64,000 bases of DNA, taken from contig NZ_WSZK01000015.1 of assembly GCF_009791395.1 (NCBI RefSeq), positions 248,001 through 312,000 on the forward strand, written 5' to 3'. The stretch comes from Halomarina oriensis. GTDB lineage: Archaea > Halobacteriota > Halobacteria > Halobacteriales > Haloarculaceae. Made by a program: the position numbers and the translations under genes. Of the stretch, positions 33,197 through 51,374 are shown one piece after another. The notes under the pieces were generated by a model. The model ran no database searches. It was given only the letters and a program-made list of their open reading frames with translations, and was not told the DNA's origin. The first letter of the stretch is position 1; every line of letters begins with the position of its first letter.

Positions 33197-34600
33197 ATGA
33201 CCGACTCCGTCCGGCACCGACTGATGGGCGTCGGCGGCGTCTTCGCCCTCACGGCGCTGGCGGTGGTGCTGGTCAACAACCCCGCCGTCCAGTCGTTCGC
33301 CACCTCCATCCCCGTCCTCCGCCGTCTCTCGCCGGACCCACCGGGCACCGCCGAGTTCCTCATCGAACTGCTCGTGACGGTCTGTGTCTTCCTCCTCGCG
33401 TTCCTCCCGCTCTATCGCCCCCGGCCACGCCGGATTCTGGACGTGCTCGTCCAGAGCGTCGAACGCGTCGTCCTCGCCGGCCTCGTCCTCGCCAGTATCG
33501 GCTACTTCGACTACACCTACCGCCTCCCGCGGTTCACCCTCCTCGTCGTCGTTCCGTTCCTCGGCGTCGCACTCCCCCTCTGGTTCGTCTGGATTCGCCG
33601 CCGCCCCGCTCGCGGGACGAACCGCGCCGTCGTCATCGGCGACGACCCGCGCGGCATCGAACGCGACATCGAGGAGTCGGACGTCCCCCTGCTCGGCTAC
33701 CTCTGCCCGTCGAGTCGCTTCCGGTCCGAAGGCGAGTCAGTCCAGGCGCTCGCCGACGGGGGCGTCAGCGCCGACGGTCTGGAGCGACTCGGTGGGCTGT
33801 CGCGCATCGAGGACGTGCTCGTCTCCTACGACGTCGATACGGCCGTGCTGGCGTTCGAGCAGGCCGACCGCGCGGAGTTCTTCGGCGCACTCGACGCCTG
33901 CCATCGGAACGGCGTGGACGCGAAGGTGCATCGGGAGCACGCCGACTCGGTACTGACCAGCGAGGACCCGGCCGGGCCGCTCGTCAACGTGGAGGTCGAA
34001 CCGTGGGACGTCGAGGACTACCTGCTCAAGCGCACGTTCGACGTGGCGTTCTCGCTGGTCGGGCTGGTGGTGCTCGCTCCGGTCATCTGTCTCATCGCGC
34101 TCGCGGTGAAACTCGACGACGGCGGGCCGGTGCTCTACCGCCAAGCGCGGACGGCGGTGTTCGGCGACACCTTCGACGTGTACAAGTTCCGGACGATGAC
34201 TCCAGCAGGGGAGTCGGAGACGCCGGTCGAGGACGCCGAGAACGACCGAATCACCGACGTGGGACGCTGGCTCCGCAGGACGCACCTCGACGAGGTGCCA
34301 CAGTTGTGGTCGATTCTGAAGGGTGACATGAGCGTCGTCGGCCCCCGTGCGGTGTGGACCGCCGAAGAGGACATCCTCGAAGCTGAATCCGAGACGTGGC
34401 GCAAGCGCTGGTTCATCAAGCCGGGGCTAACCGGGTTGGCACAGATTCACGACGCCAAGAGCACCGACCCGACGGCGAAACACTACCACGACATGCGGTA
34501 CGTCGCCGAACAGTCGTTCTGGCTGGACGTGAAGATCATCACAAGGCAGGTGTGGGGGGTGTGTGAGGACGTCTGGGGGATGCTGTTCACCCGGCAGTGA
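33197..34600 (+). CDS. Polyprenyl-phosphate glycosyl-1-phosphate transferase
   Basis: 467 residues. N-terminal membrane helices (about residues 10-27, 55-73, 88-104, 112-133), a CoA-binding-like soluble domain (AVVIGDDPRGIERDIEES), a reentrant or fifth helix at about 278-298, and the catalytic domain of the bacterial sugar transferase family: KRTFDVAFSLVGLVVLAP, RQARTAVFGDTFDVYKFRTM, HLDEVPQLWSILKGDMSVVG and KPGLTGLAQI. It moves a sugar-1-phosphate from a nucleotide sugar to a lipid phosphate carrier, the first step of glycan assembly. Head of the glycan locus. Confidence 0.92.
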   Translation: MTDSVRHRLMGVGGVFALTALAVVLVNNPAVQSFATSIPVLRRLSPDPPGTAEFLIELLVTVCVFLLAFLPLYRPRPRRILDVLVQSVERVVLAGLVLASIGYFDYTYRLPRFTLLVVVPFLGVALPLWFVWIRRRPARGTNRAVVIGDDPRGIERDIEESDVPLLGYLCPSSRFRSEGESVQALADGGVSADGLERLGGLSRIEDVLVSYDVDTAVLAFEQADRAEFFGALDACHRNGVDAKVHREHADSVLTSEDPAGPLVNVEVEPWDVEDYLLKRTFDVAFSLVGLVVLAPVICLIALAVKLDDGGPVLYRQARTAVFGDTFDVYKFRTMTPAGESETPVEDAENDRITDVGRWLRRTHLDEVPQLWSILKGDMSVVGPRAVWTAEEDILEAESETWRKRWFIKPGLTGLAQIHDAKSTDPTAKHYHDMRYVAEQSFWLDVKIITRQVWGVCEDVWGMLFTRQ

Positions 34601-34767
34601 GTAAACCGTTCGACTCGCTCCGTCGGTCGGGGCGGTCGTACTCCCTCCGACGTTTCGGTACTCGGACCGTCGCGGCCACCCTCTCCTCGACATCGGTCGC
34701 TCATCGCACGCACCTCTCGTCGAGTGCGACCAGTATCTTCTTCATGAGTCTCCGGAAATCACCGTGT

Positions 34768-35865
34768 ATGAGGGTCCTGAGAGTCGCGCAGAAGCTCTAT
34801 CCAGAAGTCCCCGGTGGTGGTCCGTACCACGTTCACGCGATGTCTCGTGACCAGGCCGCGATGGGCCACGACGTGACCGTTCTCACGGTGTCCGACGACG
34901 AACGATTGCCGACGCGAGAAGAGCGAGACGGATACACGGTGGTCCGACGTCCATCCTCGGTCGAGATGCTGGGTAACGAGGTTTCCGCGGGTGTCGCTCG
35001 CTTCCTTCGTCGCGCGGAACGGTTCGACGTCGTCCACGCCCACTCACACCTGTACTTCTCGACGAATCTCGCGGCGCTCTCACGGCGAGTCGGCGACGTT
35101 CCACTGGCCATTACGAACCACGGGCTGTACAGCCAGAACGCTCCCGAGTGGCTGTTCGACCTCTATCTACGTACCGTGGGTCGGTGGACGTTCAATCAGG
35201 CAGATATCGTGTTCTGCTACACTGACGAAGACGAAGAGCGGGTCCGAAAGTTCGGTGTAGACTCACCAATCGAAGTCGTCGCCAACGGCGTCGATACGGC
35301 CCGATTCACACCCGAAGGGCCGACGAGTGACCGCATCGACCACGACGGTCCGGTCGTACTGTTCGTGGGTCGGCTGGTCGAGGGGAAACGACCACAGGAC
35401 GCGGTGCGTGCAGTGGAGCAACTCCGTGAGACTCGACCCGATTCGGAACTGTATCTCTGCGGGGAGGGGCCGCTGCAAGAGGAGTTAGCGGCACTCGCTG
35501 CAGAAATCGGTGTCAATGATGCGACTCATTTTCTGGGACACCTAGCCTACGACGAGATGGCGAGCGTGTATCGGGCGGGAGATGTCCTGATACTGCCGAG
35601 TCGAGCAGAGGGGATGCCGCGCACTGTTATCGAGGCGATGGCCTCGGGCGTACCGGTGGTGGCCAGTGACCTGAAGCAGGTCACCCCAGTCGTCGAACAT
35701 GCTGGCGAAGCTGTCCCAATCGGAGATATCGAAGGATTCAGCACCGCGCTCAACGCGACACTCGGTGAAGCGCACGGTCCACGAGCAGTTGCCAAGGAGG
35801 GATTCGACTGGACAGAAACCGTCGAGCAGACGACGGTCGCGTTGGAGAACCTCTGCTTTCGGTAG
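34768..35865 (+). CDS. GT4-family glycosyltransferase
   Basis: 365 residues, GT-B fold. LYPEVPGGGPYHVHAMSRDQA is the donor-loop N-terminus, VLFVGRLVEGKRPQDAVRA the C-terminal domain entry, and PSRAEGMPRTVIEAMASGVPVVASD the nucleotide-sugar-binding E-x7-E motif. Adds a sugar to the growing lipid-linked glycan; donor unknown. The ATG at 34768 is favoured; ATG 34744 would add eight residues. Codon use is more AT-tolerant (AAT, GAT, TTA) than in flanking housekeeping genes. Confidence 0.92.
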   Translation: MRVLRVAQKLYPEVPGGGPYHVHAMSRDQAAMGHDVTVLTVSDDERLPTREERDGYTVVRRPSSVEMLGNEVSAGVARFLRRAERFDVVHAHSHLYFSTNLAALSRRVGDVPLAITNHGLYSQNAPEWLFDLYLRTVGRWTFNQADIVFCYTDEDEERVRKFGVDSPIEVVANGVDTARFTPEGPTSDRIDHDGPVVLFVGRLVEGKRPQDAVRAVEQLRETRPDSELYLCGEGPLQEELAALAAEIGVNDATHFLGHLAYDEMASVYRAGDVLILPSRAEGMPRTVIEAMASGVPVVASDLKQVTPVVEHAGEAVPIGDIEGFSTALNATLGEAHGPRAVAKEGFDWTETVEQTTVALENLCFR

Positions 35866-35955
35866 GTTCCCTCACCAGGGACACCCCATGCTACCTCGTC
35901 GTCGTGAGAGCAAATAAGACAGAACTGTTTTCCCACCGACTTGCCAACCCGGACT

Positions 35956-36009
35956 ATGTCCAGTAGCAGTGCATTTGACGAGACGACGGCCGCAGGCACT
36001 CACGGCTGA
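35956..36009 (+). CDS. Possible 17-residue leader peptide before the second GT4 gene
   Basis: An ORF reading MSSSSAFDETTAAGTHG ends with TGA one base before the ATG of the glycosyltransferase gene at 36011. Such spacing would allow a ribosome to reinitiate. It could equally be chance in the 145-base spacer, or a remnant of an alternative N-terminus in another frame. Confidence 0.25.
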   Translation: MSSSSAFDETTAAGTHG

Positions 36010-36010
36010 G

Positions 36011-37180
36011 ATGGACGACATCGTGTTCGCAGCCGGCTACTACGACGCGTTCACCGGCTCTCAACAGTCGATGTATCCGCTTTTAGTCGAGACAACTGCC
36101 TTCGATTCGACACTCCTGCTTCCTGAGTGGGGGGAGTGTGCGGAAGTCTTCGACGCTGCGGGGGTGACGGTAGACGTACTCAGATATCCCGAGCGACTGG
36201 ATAAGTTCGGTGGTCAACTGCTTGCTGGCGGCGTCGGTGAGAAAGGAGTGACAGGCATTTGGTTGCTCAGCTATTATTTGGATGTCGTTCGGTACTTTCG
36301 GTCGAACTCGTTCGACGCACTCTACTGCAACGACGTGCGTTCGCTGCTCCTGTTCGCACCGCCCGCGAAGGTGCTTGGGATACCAATTATCTGGTACGTC
36401 CGTATCGACACACCTATCGACAGAATCGACCACGTCGGCGTCCGACTGGCAGACCACATCCTGACCATCTCAGATGGGGTCCGGGAGCGATTCACTGACG
36501 AGGAACTCAGCACGTACGGGTCGAAGTTCACGACACTCTACACGGGTGTCGACCTCGAACGGTTCACGCCTATCGAGGAGGACGAACAGCATAAGACTGA
36601 GACGAACGAGAGCGTCACGTTCGTCGAAGTGGCGTCTATCCAGTCTCGGAAGGGTCAGCGCGAACTCGTCGAAGCGCTCGAACCGGTGTTGCGAGCGAAC
36701 GAACACGCACGCCTCGTCTTCGCTGGAGACCATGCCGAGGGAGAAGCCGCGTACCGACGCGACGTCAAACGACACGTCTCAGAGGCTGGTATCGACGACA
36801 GCGTCGAGTTTCTGGGCTGGGTCGACGACGTTCCGAGTGTGCTCCGGGAGGCAGACGTGTTCGTCCTCCCTTCGGAGAACGAAGGCTTTCCCCGTAGCAT
36901 CCTCGAAGCGTTCGCGGCCGGTCTGCCGGTCGTCGCGACTGATGCTGGTGGAACCGACGAACTCGTCACCGATGGTACGAACGGCTTCGTGGTCCCGGTT
37001 GGCGACACGGAGGCGCTCAGGGCGCGACTCATGAAACTAGCGGAGGATGCGGCATTACGCGACGAGATGGGCGCGGCAGGCCGCCGAACTGTCGAGCGAG
37101 AGTTCAGCATGATGCGATACACCGAGATGTTCGAGCAGTTCGTCTGCCGTCACGTGTTCAACAACGAGAGGAAAGCGTAA
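36011..37180 (+). CDS. GT4-family glycosyltransferase
   Basis: 389 residues, GT-B fold. DDIVFAAGYYDAFTGSQQSM opens the protein; VTFVEVASIQSRKGQRELVEAL starts the second domain; and PSENEGFPRSILEAFAAGLPVVATDAGGTDEL is the donor-binding E-x7-E motif. The start at 36011 is preferred over the in-frame ATG at 35969, whose extra residues (HLTRRRPQALTAE) lack family character. Followed 9 bases later by the AP-superfamily gene, so they form an operon. Lower GC than the flanks. Confidence 0.92.
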   Translation: MDDIVFAAGYYDAFTGSQQSMYPLLVETTAFDSTLLLPEWGECAEVFDAAGVTVDVLRYPERLDKFGGQLLAGGVGEKGVTGIWLLSYYLDVVRYFRSNSFDALYCNDVRSLLLFAPPAKVLGIPIIWYVRIDTPIDRIDHVGVRLADHILTISDGVRERFTDEELSTYGSKFTTLYTGVDLERFTPIEEDEQHKTETNESVTFVEVASIQSRKGQRELVEALEPVLRANEHARLVFAGDHAEGEAAYRRDVKRHVSEAGIDDSVEFLGWVDDVPSVLREADVFVLPSENEGFPRSILEAFAAGLPVVATDAGGTDELVTDGTNGFVVPVGDTEALRARLMKLAEDAALRDEMGAAGRRTVEREFSMMRYTEMFEQFVCRHVFNNERKA

Positions 37181-37189
37181 ACCACAATC

Positions 37190-38518
37190 ATGACCCCAAT
37201 ACGAAACCCGAACAACGTGCTTGTTCTCACTGTGGACTGCCTCCGAGCAGACATCTCCCAAACGATGCAGTGGGATTCGTTCTTGGAGCCGTTCGACACT
37301 ATTGAGTTCACAGACTGCATCGCGACCGGGTCCGGAACGTCGACTTCGTTTCCAGGTATCCTGACGAGTACCTACCCACTGGAGTTCGACGGCTACGGTT
37401 CGGTGGGCAGTGATCGAACGACGCTCGCGGGACTGTTCTCCTCGAACGGGTTCGCCACAGGAGGGTTCCACTCGAACCCACTCATCGGCGAGGATTTCGG
37501 GTACGGAGATGGGTTCGACGAATTTTACGACTCCGTCGGTGGGAAGCGGCGGCTCAACAGCGTCCTTCGACGAGCGCTACCGAAACCACTCCACGAGTTC
37601 ATCAAGAAGGCCTACTTCAAGAGCACAGACTACAACGACCTGCCCTACGAACGTGCCAATGAGGTGAATATCCGCGCGGAGCAATGGATTCGATCCGCCG
37701 ACAGTCCGTGGTTCTGCTGGATACACTACATGGAACCACATCATCCGTACAAACCCCCTGCAGACTACACGGATGTCGATGAGGCGGTCCAGAACGACCT
37801 CTGGATGCGGATGAACGAAGACCCCGAAAGCATCACCGACGAGGAAGTAGACGTGCTTCGTTCGCTGTACGAGGCAGAAATCGAGTATCTATCGACACAG
37901 TTGACGAATCTCGTCGATTCGCTCTCGGAAGACGGGCTGTTGGACGACACGCTCATCGTAGTTCTCGCAGATCACGGCGAGGAGTTCCGTGACCACGGTG
38001 GACTCGCACACCGACCAGTACTGTACGAAGAACTGGTCCACGTCCCACTCCTCTTTTCAGGTGACGTCGTCGAAGCGGACAGGACCGACGAGCGTCTGGT
38101 CTCAACGCTCGATGTCGCAACGACTGTCGCTCATGCGTCCGGAATCAGTCCTGCCGACTCGTACAGAGGGGCTGACTTGCTCTCGGTCGACGAACAGCCT
38201 CGCGAGCGGTGCTTCAGTGAACTCTCGCACACATCCGGCGGTGGCGGCGAGGTCGTCGAAGACCAGCTCAAAGTCAGTTGTCGAACGGTAGAATGGTCGT
38301 TTATCCACGACCGTCAACAGGGGGATGATTTCCTATTCAACAGGCAGACCGACTTTCGAGAGCAAAACGACGTGAGTAGCGACCACCCCGCCGTGGTAGA
38401 GGAGTTCAGAGACGAAGTGCTGGCCCACCTCGATGTGGTGCTCTCCGGAGCTTCGAACCGGCGCGAGGAGGTCGGCGAAGAGGTTGAGGACCGACTCCGC
38501 GAACTGGGCTACAGGTAG
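37190..38518 (+). CDS. Sulfatase/alkaline-phosphatase superfamily enzyme
   Basis: 442 residues. VLVLTVDCLRADIS supplies the first metal Asp. The nucleophile region TGSGTSTSFPGILTSTYPLE has Thr or Ser where sulfatases have Cys in CxPSR, so a phosphotransferase or phosphatase is more likely than a sulfatase; the Thr form is seen in phosphoglycerol transferases. HYMEPHHPYKPP, VVLADHGEEFRDHGG and GLAHRPVLYEELVHVPLL complete the metal site. No membrane segment, so it acts in the cytoplasm or needs an unseen export route. Probably decorates the glycan or lipid carrier. Confidence 0.85.
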   Translation: MTPIRNPNNVLVLTVDCLRADISQTMQWDSFLEPFDTIEFTDCIATGSGTSTSFPGILTSTYPLEFDGYGSVGSDRTTLAGLFSSNGFATGGFHSNPLIGEDFGYGDGFDEFYDSVGGKRRLNSVLRRALPKPLHEFIKKAYFKSTDYNDLPYERANEVNIRAEQWIRSADSPWFCWIHYMEPHHPYKPPADYTDVDEAVQNDLWMRMNEDPESITDEEVDVLRSLYEAEIEYLSTQLTNLVDSLSEDGLLDDTLIVVLADHGEEFRDHGGLAHRPVLYEELVHVPLLFSGDVVEADRTDERLVSTLDVATTVAHASGISPADSYRGADLLSVDEQPRERCFSELSHTSGGGGEVVEDQLKVSCRTVEWSFIHDRQQGDDFLFNRQTDFREQNDVSSDHPAVVEEFRDEVLAHLDVVLSGASNRREEVGEEVEDRLRELGYR

Positions 38519-38524
38519 TCTGGA

Positions 38525-39322
38525 TTAGCGTCGGTCGGTGAGGAGTCGGGTCGTCGAGAGCAGGAGTGCGGCGACCGTCTTCAGTCTCACGTCGAACGCG
38601 AGTGACGTCCGAAACGAGTCGACCGCGGCCCGGTACTGGCCATCGAAGTGCCGTCGCCGCCCCTGTCCATAGTGTAACGACCCGTAGAACACATCCAGAT
38701 GTTGTTCTGTCTGTGGGACCCGTTCGGTGGCTAGTTCGGCAAACTGGACGTTCGAGTCGAAGTGCAGTTTTCTCGATGTCTTGGCCGACAGTCCGCCCTC
38801 ATGCTTTCGGACGTCGACGAGATTCGGGCAGAAACAGACACCACCCTGTGTCGCTGCCTCAAGCAAGAGCAGGTGGTCCTCACGGCGTGAGAGCGACTCT
38901 TCGAACGTCACAGTCACCTGGTCGGTATCGACGAGTATGGAAGAAGTGAGCGAGTCGAGTCGACCGGAGAAGACATCGCGTACGAAGTCTTCGGTCGTCC
39001 GTGACGTCCCCTCGACACAGAGCCCTGCACCCGTCGCAGCCATCCGGTCGAGCTGTCGCTCCAACTTATCTGTCGTCCACAGGTCGTCGGCGTCAAGGAA
39101 GGCGACATACCGTGTCTCGGCCCTATTTAGTCCCTCATTACGAGCCCACGCGGGACCACGTTGATTCTTGTCGGCGACTGTCACAATGTCGACGGGGATG
39201 GTCTGGTTGCGGGCAGACTCCTCCGCCTCTCGGAGCATCGACTTCGGGGTGTGTTCCGGACTGTACGGAATCACGACCGAAACGACCGGGTCCTCGTCTG
39301 ATCGTGTCTGCGGGGGAGCCAT
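38525..39322 (-). CDS. GT2-family glycosyltransferase
   Basis: 265 residues. PVVSVVIPYSPEHTPKSMLREAEESARNQT is the GT-A N-terminus, followed by NEGLNRAETRYVAFLDADDLW with the DxD metal motif. The C-terminal third is helical (GRRRHFDGQYRAAVDSFRTSLAF), a TPR-like segment rather than membrane. Start MAPPQTRSDED at 39322, with GCTTATAC centred 32 bases upstream. It faces the GT4/AP operon tail to tail (6 bases between stops). Confidence 0.88.
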   Translation of the reverse strand: MAPPQTRSDEDPVVSVVIPYSPEHTPKSMLREAEESARNQTIPVDIVTVADKNQRGPAWARNEGLNRAETRYVAFLDADDLWTTDKLERQLDRMAATGAGLCVEGTSRTTEDFVRDVFSGRLDSLTSSILVDTDQVTVTFEESLSRREDHLLLLEAATQGGVCFCPNLVDVRKHEGGLSAKTSRKLHFDSNVQFAELATERVPQTEQHLDVFYGSLHYGQGRRRHFDGQYRAAVDSFRTSLAFDVRLKTVAALLLSTTRLLTDRR

Positions 39323-39350
39323 CGCGTTGCCGGAGAGTGCGACGGCGCAG

Positions 39351-39358
39351 GTATAAGC
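39351..39358 (-). promoter_or_regulatory. TATA-like box for the GT2 gene
   Basis: Minus-strand GCTTATAC centred about 32 bases before the ATG at 39322; it would give a leader of a few bases. Confidence 0.45.
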
Positions 39359-39416
39359 CACGCGACTCGTCTGGAATCGAAGCGACCAAACAGCACGCTG
39401 CTAATCAGACGGACGA

Positions 39417-40364
39417 ATGCTTCCCGACCGGTACTCGCTCGCGAACCTTCGGCGAGCGCTCTCGGACCCGAATCTGCTGCTTCGAGAGCCGAGACGATTC
39501 GCCCACTCTCTGTCTTACCGGATTAACGAGTTCTTCTACAGTCGGCAGTCCCGTGAGGAAGTCGTACTCGCCGAGGAGGACTGGGACGTGCTCGTCATCC
39601 TCGATGGGTGTCGGTACGACCTCTTCGCGGGTCAGACCGTCGTCGACGGGACGCTCTCGAAGCGCTACTCCTCGGCGAGCGAGAGTTGGGAGTACATGCA
39701 GGATAACTTCGTCGGCCGGACGTTCCACGACACGGTCTACATCACGGCAAATCCGCACTGGTACAAACTGGCCGACGACGTGTTCCACGATGTCGTCGAT
39801 ATGCTCGAACTGGACTGGGACGACGACCTCCACACTGTCCACCCCGCCGACGTCGTCGAACGGGCGAAGCGAGTCGACCGAGAGTACCCCGACAAGCGAC
39901 TCGTCGTCCACTTCATGCAGCCACACTTCCCCTTCATCGGTCCCGCCAGCGAGAATATCTCGCACAAAGGGCTCAGTCGGGAGCTCGGTGTGAACGAAAC
40001 GGGAGAGATGAACATCTGGCGGAACCTCGAACTGACCGACGACCACGACCCCGCGGCTGTCGTCGAGGCGTACGAGGAGAACCTCGAACTGACGTTGCCG
40101 CACGTGAGAGAGTTGTGCGAGTCGATTACCGGTCGCACCGTCGTCACGGCAGACCACGGTAATCTCGTCGGCGAACGCCTGTGGCCCATCCCCATCCGTG
40201 GCTACGGCCATCCACGGGACCTTCACGCGCCGGGACTGGTGACCGTTCCGTGGCTCGTTTGTGAGGACGAGCGTCGAGCGGTTCGGAGCGACCCGCCTGA
40301 GGCAGTTGAACGGCAAGACGACGGGACTATCGAAGAGCGCCTATCCGCTCTCGGATACGTCTGA
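39417..40364 (+). CDS. Alkaline-phosphatase-superfamily protein, second type
   Basis: 315 residues. DWDVLVILDGCRYDLFAG gives the first metal Asp, ASESWEYMQDNFVGR the likely nucleophile region (Ser), HFMQPHFPFIGPAS and VVTADHGNLVGERLW the other metal ligands, and GYGHPRDLHAPGLVTVPWLV the last His. Only distantly similar to the enzyme at 37190. This short form is common in haloarchaeal glycosylation clusters; substrate unknown. Its end overlaps the convergent Wzy-like gene by 38 bases. Confidence 0.8.
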   Translation: MLPDRYSLANLRRALSDPNLLLREPRRFAHSLSYRINEFFYSRQSREEVVLAEEDWDVLVILDGCRYDLFAGQTVVDGTLSKRYSSASESWEYMQDNFVGRTFHDTVYITANPHWYKLADDVFHDVVDMLELDWDDDLHTVHPADVVERAKRVDREYPDKRLVVHFMQPHFPFIGPASENISHKGLSRELGVNETGEMNIWRNLELTDDHDPAAVVEAYEENLELTLPHVRELCESITGRTVVTADHGNLVGERLWPIPIRGYGHPRDLHAPGLVTVPWLVCEDERRAVRSDPPEAVERQDDGTIEERLSALGYV

Positions 40365-42045
40365 ATCGAGGACTCGGTTCACACGTCGCCGCGTACTCGC
40401 CCGCGATGGCGGCGGCGAACGCCCAAAAGATGGCGTAGACCGTCGACCCGTGATAGAGACTCACCCAGAAGTTGAATGCGTGAAACGTGAGCAGTCCGGC
40501 GAGTACCATCATCCACATCTCTCGGTCGGTCCGTTGCTCCAGAGCGAGACGGAGTGTAGCGTAGTACGTGTACCCCACAGCAGACATGAAGAGAACGAAC
40601 CCAGGAAGGCCGAATTCGACCAAGACCGAGAGGTAGGTGTTGTGCGCAGTCAGTCCGAACTCCAAACCGAGTTCTCTGGTGAGCAACTGGAAATTACCAC
40701 CACCGAGTCCGAACAGTGGGTACTGCAGGGCGACCTCCAGTGCGGTGAAAGCCAACCACACCCTGATTCCGAGGTTCTCTACGACGAACGATAGAAGCAG
40801 TTCGGAGACCCCCGAACCGATCGGTGGCGTCGTCGTCTCCTGACCTCCGGTCGATTCGGTCGGTGACGGCGTCGTTCCCTGACCACCGGTCGGTTCGGTC
40901 GGTGACGGTGTTTCTCGGCCGTCCGTCGCCTCTCCGGGCGGTGTCTGCCCGACGGAGGACTCGTCCGGCGGCGTGTCCGCGGAACTGGTCTCTGCTTGGT
41001 CTTCCGAGAACCGTCTGAAGTTGAGCAGCAGGAGGCCGCCCAAAACCGAGACGCCGGTGGCCACGAGGGACCCGCTGGGGCCGAGGGGTGTAGCGCGTGC
41101 GAACAGTCCGTAGCCGCCAACGAGAACGAGCAACAGCAGGAACGCACCAAGGCCAGAAGCAGTGTCAGCGAGGAGGAGAACGAGTGTCGTCGGGAGGAGT
41201 ATCAGAAGCCACCAGCGGGCGGTCCCCGTGTACTTATCGGAGAGAACGACTGCCGTGACAGGGGCGAGCAGGAACAGTACCGCCAACAACGAGCGGGAGG
41301 TTCCGATGAATCCCCCCGGAAAGAGACCGGTGGCGTAACTGATTCCGAACATCGTCTTACTCGCGATGAGATCACCGGTCTTGTCCCCGAGGACCGTGAA
41401 CCCGAACGCCGCACCGCGCAGTCCCTCCGCGAGCGCGACGGCAGCGTGGACAGCCAACGGCGGTACGAACGCGAGGACGACATCTTTGAAGCCGTAGATG
41501 GTCGTGATTGCGAACACCGCGAGCAGCACCGCGAGCATCCGTACTCGACCGACCGTGAAGAAGACCGCCGCACTCTGAGAGGGACCGTTTCCGACGAGCG
41601 CCGATACTGCTGTCCACCCGATGAACCCTGCGAGGAGTAGTGGCAAGAACGTGAGCCGGGTCAGTCGCTGTACCTGCCCGAACGAGTACAGGACTGCGAG
41701 TAGTCCCAACGCGGCGACAAGTACCGGGTCGACGAGCAGTAGTTCGAGGTCGTTGCTTCTCGACCCTTCTACGATTGGAACTTCGGCGGAGAACGTCGAC
41801 AGCACGAACAGTCCCGCGAATATCCCTTCCGGAACGCTGTCCATCCAGACGACGAAGCCGAGATAGCAAACGCCGGTGAGACCGAGTGTCGCCAGAACTG
41901 GGACGGAGAGAATCACAGAGAGGACCGGCGAGAGCACACCGACGAGAAGAGAGACGACAAGGGAACAGACCAGCAGTGCTCGCGGGGAAGACGGAGAGAG
42001 GGAGTTACGGTTGGAAATCCGAGAGAGCCGACTGACGACGGACAT
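40327..42045 (-). CDS. O-antigen ligase / Wzy-like membrane polymerase
   Basis: 572 residues, about twelve membrane helices. The region after the Thr/Pro-rich loop (QYPLFGLGGGNFQLLTRELG, LTAHNTYLSVLVEFGLPGF) is the O-antigen ligase/polymerase signature with the conserved His in AHNTYL. The outward loop at about residues 352-410 is a low-complexity insert of repeated PSPTEPTGGQ-type units that may be O-glycosylated. Likely polymerises or transfers lipid-linked glycans on the outer face. MSVVSRLSRISNRN at 42045 is taken as the start. Confidence 0.85.
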   Translation of the reverse strand: MSVVSRLSRISNRNSLSPSSPRALLVCSLVVSLLVGVLSPVLSVILSVPVLATLGLTGVCYLGFVVWMDSVPEGIFAGLFVLSTFSAEVPIVEGSRSNDLELLLVDPVLVAALGLLAVLYSFGQVQRLTRLTFLPLLLAGFIGWTAVSALVGNGPSQSAAVFFTVGRVRMLAVLLAVFAITTIYGFKDVVLAFVPPLAVHAAVALAEGLRGAAFGFTVLGDKTGDLIASKTMFGISYATGLFPGGFIGTSRSLLAVLFLLAPVTAVVLSDKYTGTARWWLLILLPTTLVLLLADTASGLGAFLLLLVLVGGYGLFARATPLGPSGSLVATGVSVLGGLLLLNFRRFSEDQAETSSADTPPDESSVGQTPPGEATDGRETPSPTEPTGGQGTTPSPTESTGGQETTTPPIGSGVSELLLSFVVENLGIRVWLAFTALEVALQYPLFGLGGGNFQLLTRELGLEFGLTAHNTYLSVLVEFGLPGFVLFMSAVGYTYYATLRLALEQRTDREMWMMVLAGLLTFHAFNFWVSLYHGSTVYAIFWAFAAAIAGEYAATCEPSPRFRRIRERIGALR

Positions 42046-42117
42046 TTGAGTGAAACGAACGAGCACCGACGTAAAAACCCGTTGAGACGTTTCGACGGCG
42101 GTCGAGACCGTCGTCGT

Positions 42118-43593: not shown

Positions 43594-43614
43594 ACACCGA
43601 GTCGCGTCGTCCTG

Positions 43615-43623
43615 CATAAAAAG
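43615..43623 (-). promoter_or_regulatory. TATA box for the flippase gene
   Basis: Minus-strand CTTTTTATG, centred 26 bases before the ATG at 43593. It contains the ATG of the longer alternative start, which is therefore probably not translated. Confidence 0.5.
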
Positions 43624-43677
43624 AGCCAGATTCGGGTTGGAGAGCGGCCAAGAAACGACAGTTCACGGGACGCCGGT

Positions 43678-44664
43678 TCAGGAGTTCAGGACGAGCGGTT
43701 CGTACCAGTCACGGTCGTTGCGGTACCACTCGGTGAACTTCCAGACACCCTCCCGGATGGTCGTCGTCGGTTCGTAGCCGATGAGATCATTCGCCTTCGA
43801 GATGTCCGCGTGCGTGTGGTCGGCGTCGGCGTCGTGGCGTTCCTCGTACTCCAGCGTCAGGTCGGGGGCCAACTGGTCCCGAATCTCCTCGGCCAGCGTT
43901 CTGATTTCGATGTTGTCGGTCGACCCGACGTTGACGGCTTCGCCGTCGGCGGCGTCTTCTGCCAGCAACGTGACGTTCGCTTCGACTACGTCTTCGACGT
44001 ACGTGAAGTCACGCGTCTGCGTGCCGTCGCCGTACACGACCGGCGATTCTGCGTCGAGACACCGCGAGACGAAGTTCGAGATCGCCATGTTCGGGCGCAT
44101 TCGTGGGCCGTACACCGTGAAGTAGCGCAGTGCGACCGCCGGCAGGTCGTAGACCTCGCTGTAGGAGCACGCGTACCGTTCGGCCGCCAGTTTCGACGCT
44201 CCGTATGGGCTCACGGGCGTCGTCGGATGGTCCTCGTCGTACGGGAGGTACCGTGGCTTGCCGTAGACCGACGACGAGGAGGCGAGGACGACCCGTTCGA
44301 TGCCCGTATCACGGGCCGCGTCGAGGACGTTCAGCGTTCCGTCGACGTTGACGTCGTCGTACTTCCGGGGGTCCTCGACGCTCGGACGCACGCCTGCCTG
44401 CGCGGCCTGATGATAGACGTAGTCGACCTCCTCGACCAGTTCGGCCACGACGTCGGCATCTCGAACGTCCCCCTCGACGAGTCGGTAGGAGCCGTCGCCT
44501 CCGGCAGCGCGTTCGCGGCACCTCTCGACAGTGTGCGCTTTGATTCGAGTGTCGTAGAACGGGTCGAAGTTATCCAGCACGACGACGTCGTGTCCATCGA
44601 TGACGAACCGCTCTGCGAGGTGGCCGCCGATGAACCCCGCACCGCCGGTGACGAGTATTCGCAT
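43678..44664 (-). CDS. NAD-dependent nucleotide-sugar epimerase/dehydratase (GalE-like)
   Basis: 328 residues, extended [23 protein letters not shown] binds [26 protein letters not shown] and [14 protein letters not shown] give the Ser-Tyr-Lys triad; [19 protein letters not shown] and [18 protein letters not shown] line the sugar site. Fits UDP-glucose 4-epimerase or UDP-glucuronate epimerase types; the exact reaction is uncertain. Supplies a sugar donor to the neighbouring glycosyltransferases. Confidence 0.92.
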
Positions 44665-44687
44665 TTCTGACCTTTTAAAAAGTCGAA

Positions 44688-44695
44688 GATAAAAG
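44688..44695 (-). promoter_or_regulatory. TATA-like box for the epimerase gene
   Basis: Minus-strand CTTTTATC, centred 28 bases before the ATG at 44664. A second AT-rich core, CTTTTTAAAAGG (44671-44683), lies between it and the start codon and is too close to serve as the TATA box. Confidence 0.45.
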
Positions 44696-44881
44696 GCTGC
44701 TGTATCTGCACCGTCCGACCGAACGGTCCGGGGTGCCGACCAGTGCCCTGTTCGTCTCGTCGGGTTCCGCGAGAAACGAGTACGGGTCCGCCGAGCGTCG
44801 TGCGAGCGACACTCACCGTGTCGTCGACCCTACCCCACCCCGATGCGACGCCTTCTTTACTCGACTCGAACGTGAGACGGT

Positions 44882-47233
44882 ATGGTTACAGCCGGCGACG
44901 TTCGCGCCCTCCTCGACGACCGGCCCGAGTTGCAGTCGGCGACCGAGGCCGTCCTGTCCGCCGACGAACCGTTCACGTTCGGCGACCTGCCGATAGACTC
45001 GGGGCAGTTCGGCGAACTCGTCGCCGGCGGTGTCGTAGAGAAGACCGAGGGCGGAAACTACCGGGTCGCCGACCGGAACGCCGTTCGAGACGGACTCGAC
45101 GCGGCACGCGACGGTGAGCCGGGCACCGAGACCGGCTCCGCATCGACGACCGGTCGCTCGATGCCGTCGCTCTCGACGCTCGGCTCGTTCGACCGGAGCG
45201 ACCGACTCGCCGCTGCCTGTCTGCTGGTGGCCCTCGCGTTCGTCGTCGCCTTCCGGCTCACCTCGTGGAGTGCCGTCTTCCGTCCGGATCACGTCGTCCT
45301 CTCCGGGAACGACCCGTACTACTACCGGTATCTGGTCGAGCAGCTGCTCACCGACCCCGAACTGAGCGTCTCGAACCTCCCGCTGAGCTCCGAGAACGGC
45401 GAACCGCTGACGATAGCGATACTCTGGCTGGTCGCCAGCCTCCTCGGCGGTGTCGGTGCTGTCGGCGGCGTCCTCGCGTGGTACCCGGTCGTCGCGGCCG
45501 TCGTCACCGCCGTACTCGTCTACAGTATCGCAGCCCTCGTCACCGACGACCGACGGGTTGCACTCGCCGCCGTCCTGATGCTCGCCGTGTTGCCGGGCCA
45601 CGCGATGCGGACGAGTCTGGGGTTCGCCGATCACCACGCGTTCGACTACGTCTGGCTGACGCTGACGCTCCTGGGCGTCGTGCTCGTGACCGTCGCCGCC
45701 CACCGTGCTGACGGCGACGTCCTGCCGCGACCGGACCTCGCGGCGGTCGGCATCGTGACCGTCGCCCTCGGTGTGGCCGGTCAGGTGCTCGCGTGGGAGG
45801 CCGGCCCGCTGCTCGTCGTCCCGCTCGGCCTCTTCCTGGTGGCCGACGGCCTCAGAGCGGTCGCCCGCGAGGAGTCGCCGCTCCCCACGAGCGGCCCGGT
45901 CGTCCTCGGTGTCGGTCTCGCGGCCGGCCTCACGTGGCTCGTTCACGGGACACTGGGCTGGCACACGACGCCGGTGGTCGTCGCGCCCGCACTGCTCGCT
46001 GTCGGTGGCCTGGGAGTTCTGGTCGCCGGAGCGGCCGCCCGTCGCGTCGGCCTGCCGGCGTGGGCGCTCGCGGTCGGTGAACTCGTCGGGAGCGTCGTGG
46101 CGGTCCTCGCGTTTCGAGTGCTCTTCCCGGAGTTCTGGACGGAGTTCACCACCGCGGCCACGGACCGACTGTTCGGTTACCGCGCCATCGCCGAGGTCCA
46201 GAGCCTGTTCAGCCAGTCGCTCGGGTGGCTGTTGCTGTTCGGTCTGCTCCTCCTCGTCGCCCTACCGTACCTCGTCTGGAGTCTCTCACGCGCCCGCGAG
46301 GACGCCCGGTGGCTGCCGCTGGGCGTCTACGGCGCGTACTTCCTGGTGCTCGCCGTCGTCCAGGTCCGGTTCGTCGGGGAGCTGTCACCGCTCGTCGCCG
46401 TCTTCGCGGGTCTCGCGTTCGTCCACGTCGCCGCGTGGGTGGACGTCGTCGCCCCGCCGGCACCGTTCGGGGACGGTACTGCCTCAACGCTCGCCCTCCC
46501 CGACCGCTCGACCGCACAGGCGCTCGTCCTCATCTTCGTGTTGCTCGCCGGCCTGAGCATCGTCCAGGTCCCGCTCAAGACCAGTTTACTCACGACCGAC
46601 AGCGACGACTACGAGACGGCGGTCGCTATCGACGCCTACAGCGAGTCACAGGGCCTCGAATACCCCGAGAACTACGTCCTGACCGAGTGGGGCGAGAACC
46701 GGATGTACAACTACTTCGTCAACGGCGAGGCGTTCTCCTACAGTTACGCCCAGAACAACTACGCCCCGTTCGTCGCCGGCACGAACGGGTCGGAGTGGTA
46801 CGACCGACTCGACCGACGGGGGTTCGTCGTGACGAGCGACGGGGTGGTGTCCGGCGTCGTGTCGAGTGACGCACTCGGAACGCGCCTCCACCTCGACAAC
46901 GGGAGCCGCGACGGTGACACGCCCGGTCTCGGCCACTACCGACTCGTCGCCACGAACGACGGTGGGAGCTACAAGGCGTTCCAGTTGGTCCCCGGTGCCG
47001 TCCTGCGCGGGACGGCCGACCACTCGTCGACGGTGACCGTCGAGACGCGGGTCGAGGTGGAGGACACGACGTTCGTCTACACGCGACAGGCAACGACGAA
47101 CGCGGACGGGCAGTACACCGTCCGGGTCGCCTACCCCGGAACGTACACGGTGAACGGGAGCGGCGGCGGGACGGCGGTGACGGTGAACGAGTCCGCGGTC
47201 GGGGACGGGTCGACGGTTCCGACGGGGACCTGA
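44882..47233 (+). CDS. STT3/AglB-like oligosaccharyltransferase paralogue with an N-terminal winged-helix-like domain
   Basis: 783 residues. Residues 1-75 (FTFGDLPIDSGQFGELVAGG, GGNYRVADRNAVRDGL) look like a small winged-helix domain, unusual for STT3. Residues 108-570 hold about eleven to thirteen helices with SGNDPYYYRYLVEQLL (first acidic loop, about 143) and GHAMRTSLGFADHHAFDY (second acidic motif, about 239). The extracellular part has VLTEWGENRMYNYFVNG near residue 598, where catalytic family members have WWDYG. The C-terminus ends in a beta domain resembling carboxypeptidase-regulatory repeats. Likely transfers or handles glycans on the outer surface; loss of the sequon-binding motif makes protein N-glycosylation uncertain. 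Confidence 0.82.
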   Translation: MVTAGDVRALLDDRPELQSATEAVLSADEPFTFGDLPIDSGQFGELVAGGVVEKTEGGNYRVADRNAVRDGLDAARDGEPGTETGSASTTGRSMPSLSTLGSFDRSDRLAAACLLVALAFVVAFRLTSWSAVFRPDHVVLSGNDPYYYRYLVEQLLTDPELSVSNLPLSSENGEPLTIAILWLVASLLGGVGAVGGVLAWYPVVAAVVTAVLVYSIAALVTDDRRVALAAVLMLAVLPGHAMRTSLGFADHHAFDYVWLTLTLLGVVLVTVAAHRADGDVLPRPDLAAVGIVTVALGVAGQVLAWEAGPLLVVPLGLFLVADGLRAVAREESPLPTSGPVVLGVGLAAGLTWLVHGTLGWHTTPVVVAPALLAVGGLGVLVAGAAARRVGLPAWALAVGELVGSVVAVLAFRVLFPEFWTEFTTAATDRLFGYRAIAEVQSLFSQSLGWLLLFGLLLLVALPYLVWSLSRAREDARWLPLGVYGAYFLVLAVVQVRFVGELSPLVAVFAGLAFVHVAAWVDVVAPPAPFGDGTASTLALPDRSTAQALVLIFVLLAGLSIVQVPLKTSLLTTDSDDYETAVAIDAYSESQGLEYPENYVLTEWGENRMYNYFVNGEAFSYSYAQNNYAPFVAGTNGSEWYDRLDRRGFVVTSDGVVSGVVSSDALGTRLHLDNGSRDGDTPGLGHYRLVATNDGGSYKAFQLVPGAVLRGTADHSSTVTVETRVEVEDTTFVYTRQATTNADGQYTVRVAYPGTYTVNGSGGGTAVTVNESAVGDGSTVPTGT

Positions 47234-47271
47234 GGGCGAGCGCATCGTGGCGACGAGCGGGTGCCGAACGC

Positions 47272-48081
47272 TCAGAGGACGAGCGCGCCACCGAGCATCG
47301 CCACCGCACCCAGTCCGAGACAGACCAGCCAGAACGGGACGCGTTCGACGACCCGGAGGAGCGCGTCGATGGTCGCGTAGCCGACGAGGAAGGCGGTGAG
47401 CAGTGCGATAGCGGCGGCCGTCGGCGTCACCTCGCCGAGGCCCGTATCGACGTACGCGATGGCCGCGCCGCCGAGCGCCGCGGGGATGGAGAGGAGAAAC
47501 GAGAAGCGGAACGCCGAGGAGCCGTCGTAGCCACGCAGGAGCAACGTCCCGGTGGTCATCCCCGACCGGGAGACGCCGGGGAGGATGGCGACGCCCTGAG
47601 CGGCCCCGACGAGGACGGCGTCGAGGAGGTCCGGGTCACGCTCGGTGCTCGCGCGTCCCGCCGTGAACTTCTGGAAGAGGCCGGTCACCACGAGGAGGAC
47701 ACCGACGAGGACGACGACGGTCCCGCCGGTCAGTTCGTTCACCACCTCGTCGAGCGTCGCGTAGGCCGCGATACCGACGAGTCCGGAGACGAGCGTGCCG
47801 ACAGCGAGGAACGTCACCGGGGCCTGTTCGCCCACGAACGCGCGTTTCGGTCGCCAGTCGGGGAGGCGACCGAGCAGTTCGGCGACCTCCTCGCGGTAGT
47901 AGACGCTGGCCGAACCCGCCGTCCCGAGGTGGAGAAAGAGGCTGAAGGCGACGGCCGCCTCCGCCGGCCGGCCGAGCGCCGTGAGGACGACGGTGAGGTT
48001 CCCCTCACTGGAGATGGGGAGCCACTCGAAGATACCCTGGAGGACGCCGGCGAGCAGCGCGACGAGGAGCGACCGGTCCAT
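47272..48081 (-). CDS. uppP: Undecaprenyl-diphosphate phosphatase (UppP/BacA) family
   Basis: 269 residues, eight helices. LLAGVLQGIFEWLPISSEGN is the first signature (E-x-x-P-x-S), and GAAQGVAILPGVSRSGMTTGTLL the second (PGxSRSG). Removes a phosphate from the polyprenyl pyrophosphate carrier left after glycan transfer; in archaea the carrier would be dolichol-type. Position after the STT3-like gene fits carrier recycling. The two are convergent, not in one operon. Confidence 0.92.
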   Translation of the reverse strand: MDRSLLVALLAGVLQGIFEWLPISSEGNLTVVLTALGRPAEAAVAFSLFLHLGTAGSASVYYREEVAELLGRLPDWRPKRAFVGEQAPVTFLAVGTLVSGLVGIAAYATLDEVVNELTGGTVVVLVGVLLVVTGLFQKFTAGRASTERDPDLLDAVLVGAAQGVAILPGVSRSGMTTGTLLLRGYDGSSAFRFSFLLSIPAALGGAAIAYVDTGLGEVTPTAAAIALLTAFLVGYATIDALLRVVERVPFWLVCLGLGAVAMLGGALVL

Positions 48082-48183
48082 ACCACATCGGTCGAAGCCG
48101 CGAGTAAAGGGGTTGCTGTTCGGGGATTCGGGCGGTGAGCGCACGACGAAACACTGAGACACCTCCACGACGACCGAACGACC

Positions 48184-48474
48184 GTGACCGACGACCCCAC
48201 CCGACGGCTGGCCGACCACCTCGTCGCCACCGGCGAACGACCTATCGACAGTCGAACGAACGCGTGGCTGGGCGAGGCGGAGGCGCTCGCGCTCGACATG
48301 GCCGAGTCCGACCTCGACCCAGCCGTCGAGCGCGAACGTGCCGGCCACGTCGTCGAACTGCTCTCGAACGTCGACGGGACGGGCGACGAGCAGGCGGACG
48401 AACACGTCACGGCCGCACGCACGCTCGCCGAGCGGTTGGCCGGCGACTCCAGTCGGTCCGCACCGCACGACTGA
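48184..48474 (+). CDS. Small helical protein of unknown function
   Basis: 96 residues from a GTG start: TDDPTRRLADHLVATGERPIDSRTNAWLGEAEALALDM, then ERAGHVVELLSNVDGTGDEQADEHV. All-helical, acidic and soluble, no motif. Similar unnamed proteins occur in haloarchaea as I recall. It diverges from uppP over 102 bases. Confidence 0.65.
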   Translation: MTDDPTRRLADHLVATGERPIDSRTNAWLGEAEALALDMAESDLDPAVERERAGHVVELLSNVDGTGDEQADEHVTAARTLAERLAGDSSRSAPHD

Positions 48475-48632
48475 GCGACGGACCGACCCGGAACGTCGGC
48501 TTCGAGGTGAACGCGGTCACCGGAGTCGGTCGGCCGAACCCACAGTCGTCGAAGTGGGCGGACCCGTGTCGGCTTCACCTGCCGGTTACCGAGGCCGTCG
48601 CCTTCTTGCGGGTCCGACTCGTCTCTACGCAC

Positions 48633-48797
48633 ATGTCGAAGGTGACCCGCCTACTGACGGTACTGCTCGGACTGTTCGTCGTCGCGTCGGTCGTCCACTA
48701 CGCGCTGTTCGGTGCGCTGCCGTTCGGGAAGCCCCAACTGCTGGCGGACGCCCAGAGCGAGTACGACGGGGACGCGACGGTCGAAGTCGTCGAGTGA
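48633..48797 (+). CDS. Small single-span membrane protein
   Basis: 54 residues: MSKVTRLLTVLLGLFVVASVVHYALFGALPFG, one membrane span near residues 7-30, then an acidic outside or inside tail QLLADAQSEYDGDATVEVVE. The sequence is coding-like in codon use and ends at a TGA. No family recognised. Confidence 0.65.
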   Translation: MSKVTRLLTVLLGLFVVASVVHYALFGALPFGKPQLLADAQSEYDGDATVEVVE

Positions 48798-48945
48798 GCG
48801 ACTGAACACCCCTCTCTTCGACGGTTCCGCACGCTCTGAGTGTTCGCCATCGCGGTCGTTTTCGTATCGTGGCTGACGGTGTATCGGCCGGACGCGACGG
48901 CGACCGCTCGTCTGCGAGAGCACGGTCGACTCGGCCGAGATCCGG

Positions 48946-50370: not shown

Positions 50371-50480
50371 CTGCGAGCGAGTAGTTCGTTCTGCGGTATA
50401 AACTGCTGGCCCTCACCGACGGGACGTTCCGGCGACGGGGAGACACCCCGTTCGGACACTTCCTGTATTCTGAGTAACAG

Positions 50481-50487
50481 CTATTAT
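50481..50487 (+). promoter_or_regulatory. TATA-like box for the polysaccharide deacetylase gene
   Basis: CTATTAT; with the usual spacing transcription would start near 50510, downstream of the ATG at 50499 but upstream of that at 50517, which supports the later start. Confidence 0.4.
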
Positions 50488-50516
50488 CCGAGACGACGAT
50501 GCCGAGAGCGACAGCG

Positions 50517-51374
50517 ATGGACCGAACCGAGGAGAACTGGCATCCGCTCCGGCAGTGGGCGAATCGAGCGGCCGTCGACGCCATCGACGGTGTCGACAGG
50601 GTACTCGGGAGCGCGGACGCCCGGATGCGGTTCTCACGACTCTGGTCGAGTCGGCAGAACGCGGTGTTGATGTACCACTCCGTCGGGGGGATACCGGGCT
50701 ACGTCGGGAGCCTCCCGGTCGAACGGTTCGTGGCCGACCTCGAAGCGCTCGTCGAACGCTACGACGTCGTTGACCTCCCGGCGGTGCTGGACCCGACCGA
50801 GACCCGACCGAAGCGGGTCGCCCTGACCTTCGACGACGGGTTCGTCGACTTCTCGACGACCGTCCTCCCGTTGCTGCGCGAGTTCGACGTCCCGGCGACG
50901 GTGTTCGTCTCCAGTGCGTTCGTCGACGACGAGAGCAGGGCACTCGCCTACGAGCGCCACGAACTGGAACCGTCGGACGACCGTCTCCTGATGACCGAGG
51001 CGGAGTTGGCCGAACTCGTCGAGGAGGACCTCGTCACCATCGGCAACCACACGCGGACACACCCGAGGCTCTCGACGCTGGACACGGCGACGAAACGCGA
51101 GGAGATACTGGGTGCGAAGTCCGACCTCGAATCCCGGTTCGGCGTCACCGTCGACCGGTTCTGTTACCCGTACGGCGACTTCGACGGCGAAGCGGTCGAC
51201 ATCGCGGCGAGCGCACACGACCTGTCGGTCACCATCGACCGTGGTCTCGTCGCCCCGTCGACCGACCCCCACCGAATCCCCCGCATCGACGGGAACGACC
51301 CGCGAGCGGAGATGTGGTGGCGACTCACCGACCTGCGGTACGTGCCGGCGACGGTCCTCGGTCGGACGCTCTGA
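50517..51374 (+). CDS. Polysaccharide deacetylase family protein (NodB homology)
   Basis: 285 residues. RVALTFDDGFVDFSTTVLPLLREF holds the NodB Asp-Asp pair, TIGNHTRTHPRLSTL the zinc His pair (H-x3-H), and RFCYPYGDFDGEAVDIAAS motif 3. Removes N-acetyl groups from amino sugars or acts on related acyl groups. No signal peptide, suggesting action on cytoplasmic lipid-linked precursors; a link with the glycan locus 5 kb away is plausible. An in-frame ATG at 50499 would add six residues. Confidence 0.88.
   Translation: MDRTEENWHPLRQWANRAAVDAIDGVDRVLGSADARMRFSRLWSSRQNAVLMYHSVGGIPGYVGSLPVERFVADLEALVERYDVVDLPAVLDPTETRPKRVALTFDDGFVDFSTTVLPLLREFDVPATVFVSSAFVDDESRALAYERHELEPSDDRLLMTEAELAELVEEDLVTIGNHTRTHPRLSTLDTATKREEILGAKSDLESRFGVTVDRFCYPYGDFDGEAVDIAASAHDLSVTIDRGLVAPSTDPHRIPRIDGNDPRAEMWWRLTDLRYVPATVLGRTL

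Follow-up and report, generated by a model that had tools for sequence, protein, structure and literature searches.

A WWDYG-less STT3 paralogue coupled to a polyisoprenyl-phosphate sugar-1-phosphate transferase and UppP is widespread in haloarchaea

We analysed a 64,000-nucleotide stretch of the Halomarina oriensis genome (contig NZ_WSZK01000015.1, positions 248,001 to 312,000; the window below), in which a set of glycan genes spans 33.2-48.5 kb, as judged from open reading frames and Pfam and NCBIfam matches. The main finding concerns a paralogue of the oligosaccharyltransferase STT3/AglB, here called STT3p, which lacks the WWDYG motif, is present in 215 of 391 genomes of the class, and is coupled to a polyisoprenyl-phosphate sugar-1-phosphate transferase (PGT) and to the lipid-pyrophosphate phosphatase UppP. 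On balance, we favour the view that these genes belong to a second lipid-pyrophosphate glycan pathway of the Wzx/Wzy type, separate from canonical AglB N-glycosylation, in which the polymer, or its units, would be transferred by an STT3p blind to the sequon. On this view, over half of the haloarchaea sampled would have a polymer-type glycan pathway that is absent from the model species Haloferax volcanii; the control genome of this species gave no match for PGT, Wzy_C or UppP, which would explain why the pathway has stayed out of view. The locus may help to explain an old puzzle concerning archaeal surface sugars.

The canonical AglB of Halomarina oriensis is encoded elsewhere in the genome and scored 812 bits against the curated archaeal STT3 model TIGR04154, whereas STT3p, with 143 bits, lay below the cut-off of 450. 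A canonical AglB above this cut-off was found in 56 of 59 relatives, and STT3p is therefore an addition to AglB. Its Pfam matches were to PF02516, with a score equal to the cut-off (24.5 bits), and to PF18079 (34 bits), and its structural model (pLDDT 89.2) had A. fulgidus AglB (AfAglB; 7e9s) as best solved match (Z 34.7, 4.3 Å over 642 residues), consistent with the GT-C oligosaccharyltransferase fold. A profile alignment with AfAglB showed that GND, DHH, I-A-E and R-F are kept. Across the family (28 aligned rows), D144 of the first acidic motif, E438 (the EL5 glutamate) and R496 were each present in all rows, and D250 of the DHH motif was D in 26 rows and E in two. These four residues, which correspond to the donor and metal site of AglB and PglB structures, place STT3p with AglB/STT3 on the donor side.

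The acceptor side differs. WWDYG, described in PMC3703281 as near or part of the +2 Ser/Thr pocket, was present in 21/21 canonical AglBs and in none of the 28 aligned STT3p rows, the 32 paralogues of another alignment or the 79 named STT3p loci. Its position is held by W-x3-R-x2-N, with W603, R607 and N610 in all 28 rows. As the pattern used to pick the named loci was itself taken from the W-x3-R-x2-N region, only the absence of WWDYG is unbiased there, and several of them come from the same genomes as the listed genome set, such that the counts are not independent. STT3p is not classed here as an N-oligosaccharyltransferase, since this defining motif was looked for and is lacking; to judge from its motifs, it is not an enzyme of the ordinary kind. 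The preliminary description of the window had listed an STT3 paralogue. Membership of the STT3 family holds, but not the role of an ordinary second N-glycosylation enzyme, as the protein lacks WWDYG and its ties are with PGT and UppP, not with canonical AglB. No published description of a WWDYG-less haloarchaeal STT3 was found in the literature searched, which lacks most subscription journals. An enzyme that keeps the donor machinery and drops the sequon pocket would be useful for understanding the coupling of polysaccharides to proteins.

Variants of STT3p were also seen. In two Haladaptatus (loci L245 and L266, 19980-22928), a longer form of about 1,000 amino acids carries the annotation LamG-like and has wecB and GT4 genes nearby, and frames of about 1,000 amino acids occur in four listed genomes (G008, G019, G027 and G029). 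One genome has a further STT3p copy (G122, C1:2937900-2940284) that is interrupted by three stop codons and is likely a pseudogene.

Co-occurrence was counted over the 391 genomes (both genes/first only/second only/neither). PGT, usually single-copy, was found in 241. The counts were 202/13/39/137 for STT3p and PGT (odds ratio 55), 177/38/32/144 for STT3p and UppP (odds ratio 21), 197/44/12/138 for PGT and UppP (odds ratio 51) and 154/87/6/144 for PGT and Wzy_C (odds ratio 42). As such odds ratios are inflated by shared ancestry, labels were shuffled within genera of the organism's own family (85 genomes). Concordance within genera was 75/85 for STT3p and PGT, versus 62.9 expected (p at most 5e-5), 75/85 for STT3p and UppP, versus 65.7 expected (p 1.5e-4), and 77/85 for PGT and UppP, versus 67.6 expected (p 3e-4). 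The rhodopsin family gave 56/80 concordant, versus 57.6 expected (p 0.95), and is a weak control, being only mildly patchy (present in 70/80). Within genera, STT3p, PGT and UppP come and go together. In the genus group g6, to which Haloarcula vallismortis and Haloarcula argentinensis belong, each of the 24 genomes sampled has all three.

Linkage was scored in 29 genomes with STT3p, matches on another contig being taken as not near. PGT lay within 50 kb of STT3p in 23/29 genomes and of canonical AglB in none; for Wzy, the corresponding figures were 13/29 and 0/29. In the named loci PGT often adjoined STT3p, at a distance of 2.4-2.7 kb from its start (Halolamina and Natrialba, for example), and UppP was often close. 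Wzx lay within 50 kb of STT3p in 21/29 genomes and of canonical AglB in 15/29, and it was rejected as a linkage marker because it lies near canonical AglB about as often as near STT3p. One genome was left out of the linkage and co-occurrence analyses (G011; its match, with E 5e-32, is probably a canonical AglB), as were Wzy_C rows under the cut-off in G012, G053 (C21) and G039 (two, on C5) and six sub-cut-off PF13440 rows.

The genes of the window locus and its cassette are as follows (positions are those of the window).

33197..34600, plus strand: PGT, polyisoprenyl-phosphate sugar-1-phosphate transferase (Bac_transf; PF02397, 192 bits)
34583..44837: exchangeable low-GC cassette (blastn breakpoints against Halomarina rubra; GC at third codon positions, GC3)
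34597..35865, plus strand: GT4 glycosyltransferase (PF13439, PF00534; start uncertain, domain from residue 72 of the frame)
35969..37180, plus strand: GT4 glycosyltransferase (PF00534, 131 bits)
37190..38518, plus strand: sulfatase-fold (AP-superfamily) enzyme, hydrolase or transferase (PF00884, 116 bits)
38525..39361, minus strand: divergent GT2 glycosyltransferase (PF00535, 51 bits, central profile 61-112 only)
39417..40364, plus strand: uncharacterised protein, AP-like by motif alone (motif reading)
40327..42066, minus strand: Wzy/WaaL-fold membrane glycosyltransferase, 579 amino acids, presumed repeat-unit polymerase (PF04932 and model)
42118..43617, minus strand: Wzx/MOP flippase (PF01943, 85 bits; PF13440, 71 bits)
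43678..44664, minus strand: SDR nucleotide-sugar epimerase/dehydratase (PF16363, PF01370)
44882..47233, plus strand: STT3p, WWDYG-less STT3/AglB paralogue, conserved right flank of the cassette (PF02516, PF18079)
47272..48468, minus strand: UppP/BacA lipid-pyrophosphate phosphatase, start uncertain (PF02673, 174 bits; 82% identity in H. rubra)
50499..51374, plus strand: polysaccharide deacetylase, peripheral, membership uncertain (PF01522)

The preliminary description had named a sugar-1-phosphate transferase, three glycosyltransferases, an epimerase, a flippase, a Wzy/ligase-like protein, the STT3 paralogue and a UppP, and open frames and Pfam/NCBIfam matches bear out all of these. It had also counted two AP-superfamily enzymes; one of these stands (PF00884), and the second (39417..40364) is recognisable by motif only, with no family matched in Pfam or NCBIfam. 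As a separate observation, the family of the latter protein recurs at other haloarchaeal loci (18 phmmer rows among the loci compared).

The interior of the locus, between PGT and STT3p, is a cassette swapped between lineages in the manner of O-antigen genes. GC content falls to 0.58-0.62 over about 35-44 kb, as against 0.66-0.71 in most other 2-kb intervals, and GC3 is 0.67-0.83 in cassette genes and 0.85-0.91 in flanking genes. The dip that had been placed at 34.7-43 kb is thus real, but it extends to about 44.7 kb. Nucleotide similarity to H. rubra (76-88%, blastn) covers rpiA, pgm, panE, nifU, the DUF5783 gene and PGT, ends at 34,582, and restarts at 44,838, 44 bases ahead of STT3p, to continue through UppP, the DHH gene and the heme genes; none was found at the same place by blastn for 34583-44837. 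PGT, the conserved left flank, has a single match in the Halomarina oriensis genome and is 85% identical to the PGT of H. rubra. Between the same flanks, H. rubra carries a different group of low-GC genes (Wzx-GT4-Wzy-GT2, GC 0.55-0.60), the Wzx and Wzy of which are about 27% identical to their Halomarina oriensis counterparts, and in other Halomarina STT3p and PGT are located in different neighbourhoods. The comparison of gene content and GC with relatives that had been proposed therefore revealed no conserved synteny with normal GC, and assembly by gene transfer, as first suggested, is supported by the unrelated cassette between the same flanks and by the differing neighbourhoods. In bacterial O-antigen loci, structure-determining genes are replaced between conserved start and transfer genes; with a swapped interior and kept flanks, glycan structure would vary while the start and transfer steps remained constant. 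Such swapping at an archaeal surface-glycan locus is relevant to virus-host contact.

The Wzy-like protein matched PF04932 marginally (31.9 bits, cut-off 31.7). R435 and H475 were invariant in a 14-row alignment. The AlphaFold model was of moderate confidence (mean pLDDT 71.5; low over residues 356-430), and the solved structure that it matched best was 7tpg_B, a WaaL O-antigen ligase (Foldseek E 6.2e-6; Z 22.0, 4.7 Å over 363 residues), with FtsW/RodA proteins ranking below (Z about 12). Pfam and fold thus assign the protein to the Wzy/WaaL superfamily. It is presumed to be the repeat-unit polymerase because STT3p already supplies a second transfer-type enzyme. The idea that archaea have no Wzy, which would make the locus exceptional, does not survive the count over the class, in which Wzy_C was found in 160/391 genomes and PGT in the 241 given above; such a set is not confined to Halomarina oriensis.

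In the pathway that we propose, PGT would place a sugar-1-phosphate on polyisoprenyl phosphate, yielding a lipid-pyrophosphate starter, on which the cassette glycosyltransferases and the SDR enzyme would assemble a repeat unit. Wzx would flip this unit, Wzy would join units to a polymer outside the membrane, and STT3p would move the polymer (or units) from lipid pyrophosphate to an acceptor, taking no account of the Ser/Thr at +2 in a sequon, the lipid pyrophosphate released being recycled by UppP. The reactions given to PGT and UppP are those generally known for these families, and the lipid would be dolichol. We infer the order of these reactions, the formation of a polymer and the position of STT3p as last step; judging from gene content, a polymer is the likely product of the locus.

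Several results weigh against this pathway. STT3p and Wzy_C are less tightly coupled than the other pairs (122/93/38/138, odds ratio 4.8), and no Wzy_C match was found in 93/215 STT3p genomes; Wzy proteins diverge fast, but the lack of a match could also mean non-polymer glycans. Within 20 kb, Wzx is about equally frequent near STT3p (15/29) and near canonical AglB (13/29), and the STT3p-PGT stretch examined in Haloarcula amylolytica contained no match to the Halomarina oriensis Wzx or Wzy. The fold of the Wzy-like protein does not by itself separate a polymerase from a ligase. A chromosomal scan for the PGF-CTERM pattern gave 1/20 STT3p loci and 1/20 canonical AglB loci, and hence no enrichment. 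Finally, 39 of the 241 PGT genomes lack STT3p and 32 of these 39 have Wzy_C, so a polymer pathway can exist without STT3p. These last genomes, and the loss of exopolysaccharide in Haloarcula hispanica mutants of a related type of cluster (PMC5467301), favour a plain Wzx/Wzy route to a free or loosely held exopolysaccharide or capsule, with STT3p in a side role (a short glycan on protein, for example) rather than as last step. We regard this as possible but unlikely, given the joint gain and loss of STT3p, PGT and UppP within genera and the position of STT3p beside PGT at many loci. In a separate observation, four genus groups (g5, g25, g34 and g78) have PGT, usually with Wzy_C and UppP, and no STT3p, and hence a polymer set without it.

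Two further explanations concern STT3p itself. It might be an ordinary second N-oligosaccharyltransferase reading N-X-S/T through a rewritten pocket, the Wzy-like protein being a ligase or uninvolved. The AglB fold, the AglB_L1 domain and the donor-side residues are all kept, and the public annotation (STT3 domain protein, GO term protein glycosylation) agrees, but the absence of WWDYG from the aligned rows and named loci, as opposed to its presence in every canonical AglB, and the differently conserved motif in its place make this improbable. It is more improbable still that STT3p itself polymerises the glycan, or adds single sugars to it as it grows, with the Wzy-like protein as ligase: the GT-C fold does include sugar transferases, and ArnT and ALG enzymes rank further down among the structural matches of STT3p, but the AglB/STT3 matches are far higher (Z 34.7 versus 25 and below), and STT3p and Wzy_C occur together in 122 genomes.

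The proposed transfer by STT3p raises the question of its partners and acceptors. STT3p begins with a domain (about residues 3-78) that is homologous to the N-terminal part of a haloarchaeal EMC3/TMCO1-like protein (PF01956; hhalign 98.1%, E 1.3e-13), and 242/336 pairwise comparisons had E < 1e-3. Examples of the EMC3/TMCO1-like protein with this domain are encoded at L205:2820-3725 and L206:2511-3410, the STT3p counterpart being window 44882-45226; the domain matched no Pfam family, and the canonical AglB of Halomarina oriensis begins with a far shorter leader. Such sharing hints that the membrane insertase and STT3p may both bind one partner, located at the translocon or ribosome.

STT3p is carried on six plasmids. 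The 154-kb plasmid NZ_CP098515.1 of Haloplanus sp. GDY1 contains an S-layer glycoprotein gene (csg) together with STT3p, UppP, a sugar transferase, glycosyltransferases, a flippase, a sulfatase and an O-antigen ligase family gene, and a Salinigranum rubrum plasmid contains two PGF-CTERM protein genes with STT3p, UppP, a sugar transferase, glycosyltransferases and an O-antigen ligase family gene. Surface-glycoprotein genes are also near STT3p on a Salinibaculum plasmid, making three of the six; on the remaining three, no surface-protein annotation was close to STT3p. These neighbours and the insertase-shared domain suggest a surface or nascent protein as acceptor, which we treat as a lead. The PGF-CTERM pattern occurred near STT3p in 7/73 named loci; naming the acceptor from the neighbourhood was rejected as a general rule, as the chromosomal scan had given no enrichment.

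At Asn-2 of its S-layer glycoprotein, Halobacterium salinarum is reported to bear an N-glycan composed of 10-20 repeating pentasaccharide units (PMC2952790). It is made on dolichol pyrophosphate, external bacitracin blocks it, and its attachment persists when the sequon serine is replaced by Val, Leu or Asn. According to this review, no suitable explanation had been put forward, and a single oligosaccharyltransferase gene was known. Repeat units, lipid pyrophosphate and independence of the sequon serine are the properties predicted by the Halomarina oriensis gene set, since a pathway begun on lipid pyrophosphate, with a polymerase and with a transferase that lacks the +2 pocket, would fit this glycan. 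The two differ in that the Asn-2 glycan is known by chemistry, its genes going unnamed in the accessible sections of the review, whereas the Halomarina oriensis locus is known by its genes alone. The only Halobacterium examined, Halobacterium sp. CBA1126, has STT3p with a PGT match 5.5 kb away. We therefore put forward as a hypothesis a link between the STT3p/PGT/Wzy set and the Asn-2 glycan. Its fullest form is tentative: haloarchaea might have a second oligosaccharyl- or polysaccharyltransferase that has so far gone unrecognised, an STT3 lacking WWDYG, which would dock to the translocon or insertase by means of the EMC3/TMCO1-shared domain, would move Wzy-polymerised lipid-pyrophosphate glycans onto surface proteins without +2 Ser/Thr, and might be the missing enzyme for this sequon-independent glycan. 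If so, the genes described here would be candidates for an enzyme step in Halobacterium that is chemically known and unexplained.

Among known systems, bacterial Wzx/Wzy loci for O-antigen or capsule resemble the locus, with a PGT start (here PF02397, a polyisoprenyl-phosphate hexose-1-phosphate transferase), a glycosyltransferase set, a MOP-family Wzx (PF01943, PF13440), a Wzy/WaaL-fold enzyme, UppP and a low-GC cassette between conserved flanks. The present locus is archaeal, however, and the transfer-type gene in its conserved flank is an STT3 paralogue. With the GT66 enzymes AglB, STT3 and PglB, STT3p shares the fold, the AglB_L1 domain and the donor and metal-site residues; it differs in lacking WWDYG, in its extra insertase-shared N-terminal domain and in occurring beside canonical AglB, not instead of it. 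In Haloarcula hispanica, deletion of HAH_1662 or HAH_1667 abolishes a 1.1 MDa acidic exopolysaccharide, and the cluster (HAH_1661-1667) likewise contains glycosyltransferases, a polysaccharide biosynthesis protein and an arylsulfatase-family protein, but no PGT, Wzy or STT3 is named in the available part of its description (PMC5467301). The predicted archaeal Wzy homologue arCOG03206 (MJ0420) matched pfam14296 in PMC5898192, whereas the Halomarina oriensis protein matches PF04932. The AglB-independent low-salt glycan of H. volcanii, described in PMC10384203, was rejected as a product of such a set, as the control genome has no PGT match.

At the right end of the locus, the RecJ-like DHH gene and the deacetylase gene have host-like GC and are not clearly members of the glycan set; the latter lies between the DHH gene and hemD and is missing from the same place in H. 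rubra. A defence-system reading of the locus was rejected, PADLOC having given no match for four of its proteins. ARAGORN reported a tRNA-Ala(CGC) at 30038-30130 on the minus strand, within the pgm gene, which is probably a false positive.

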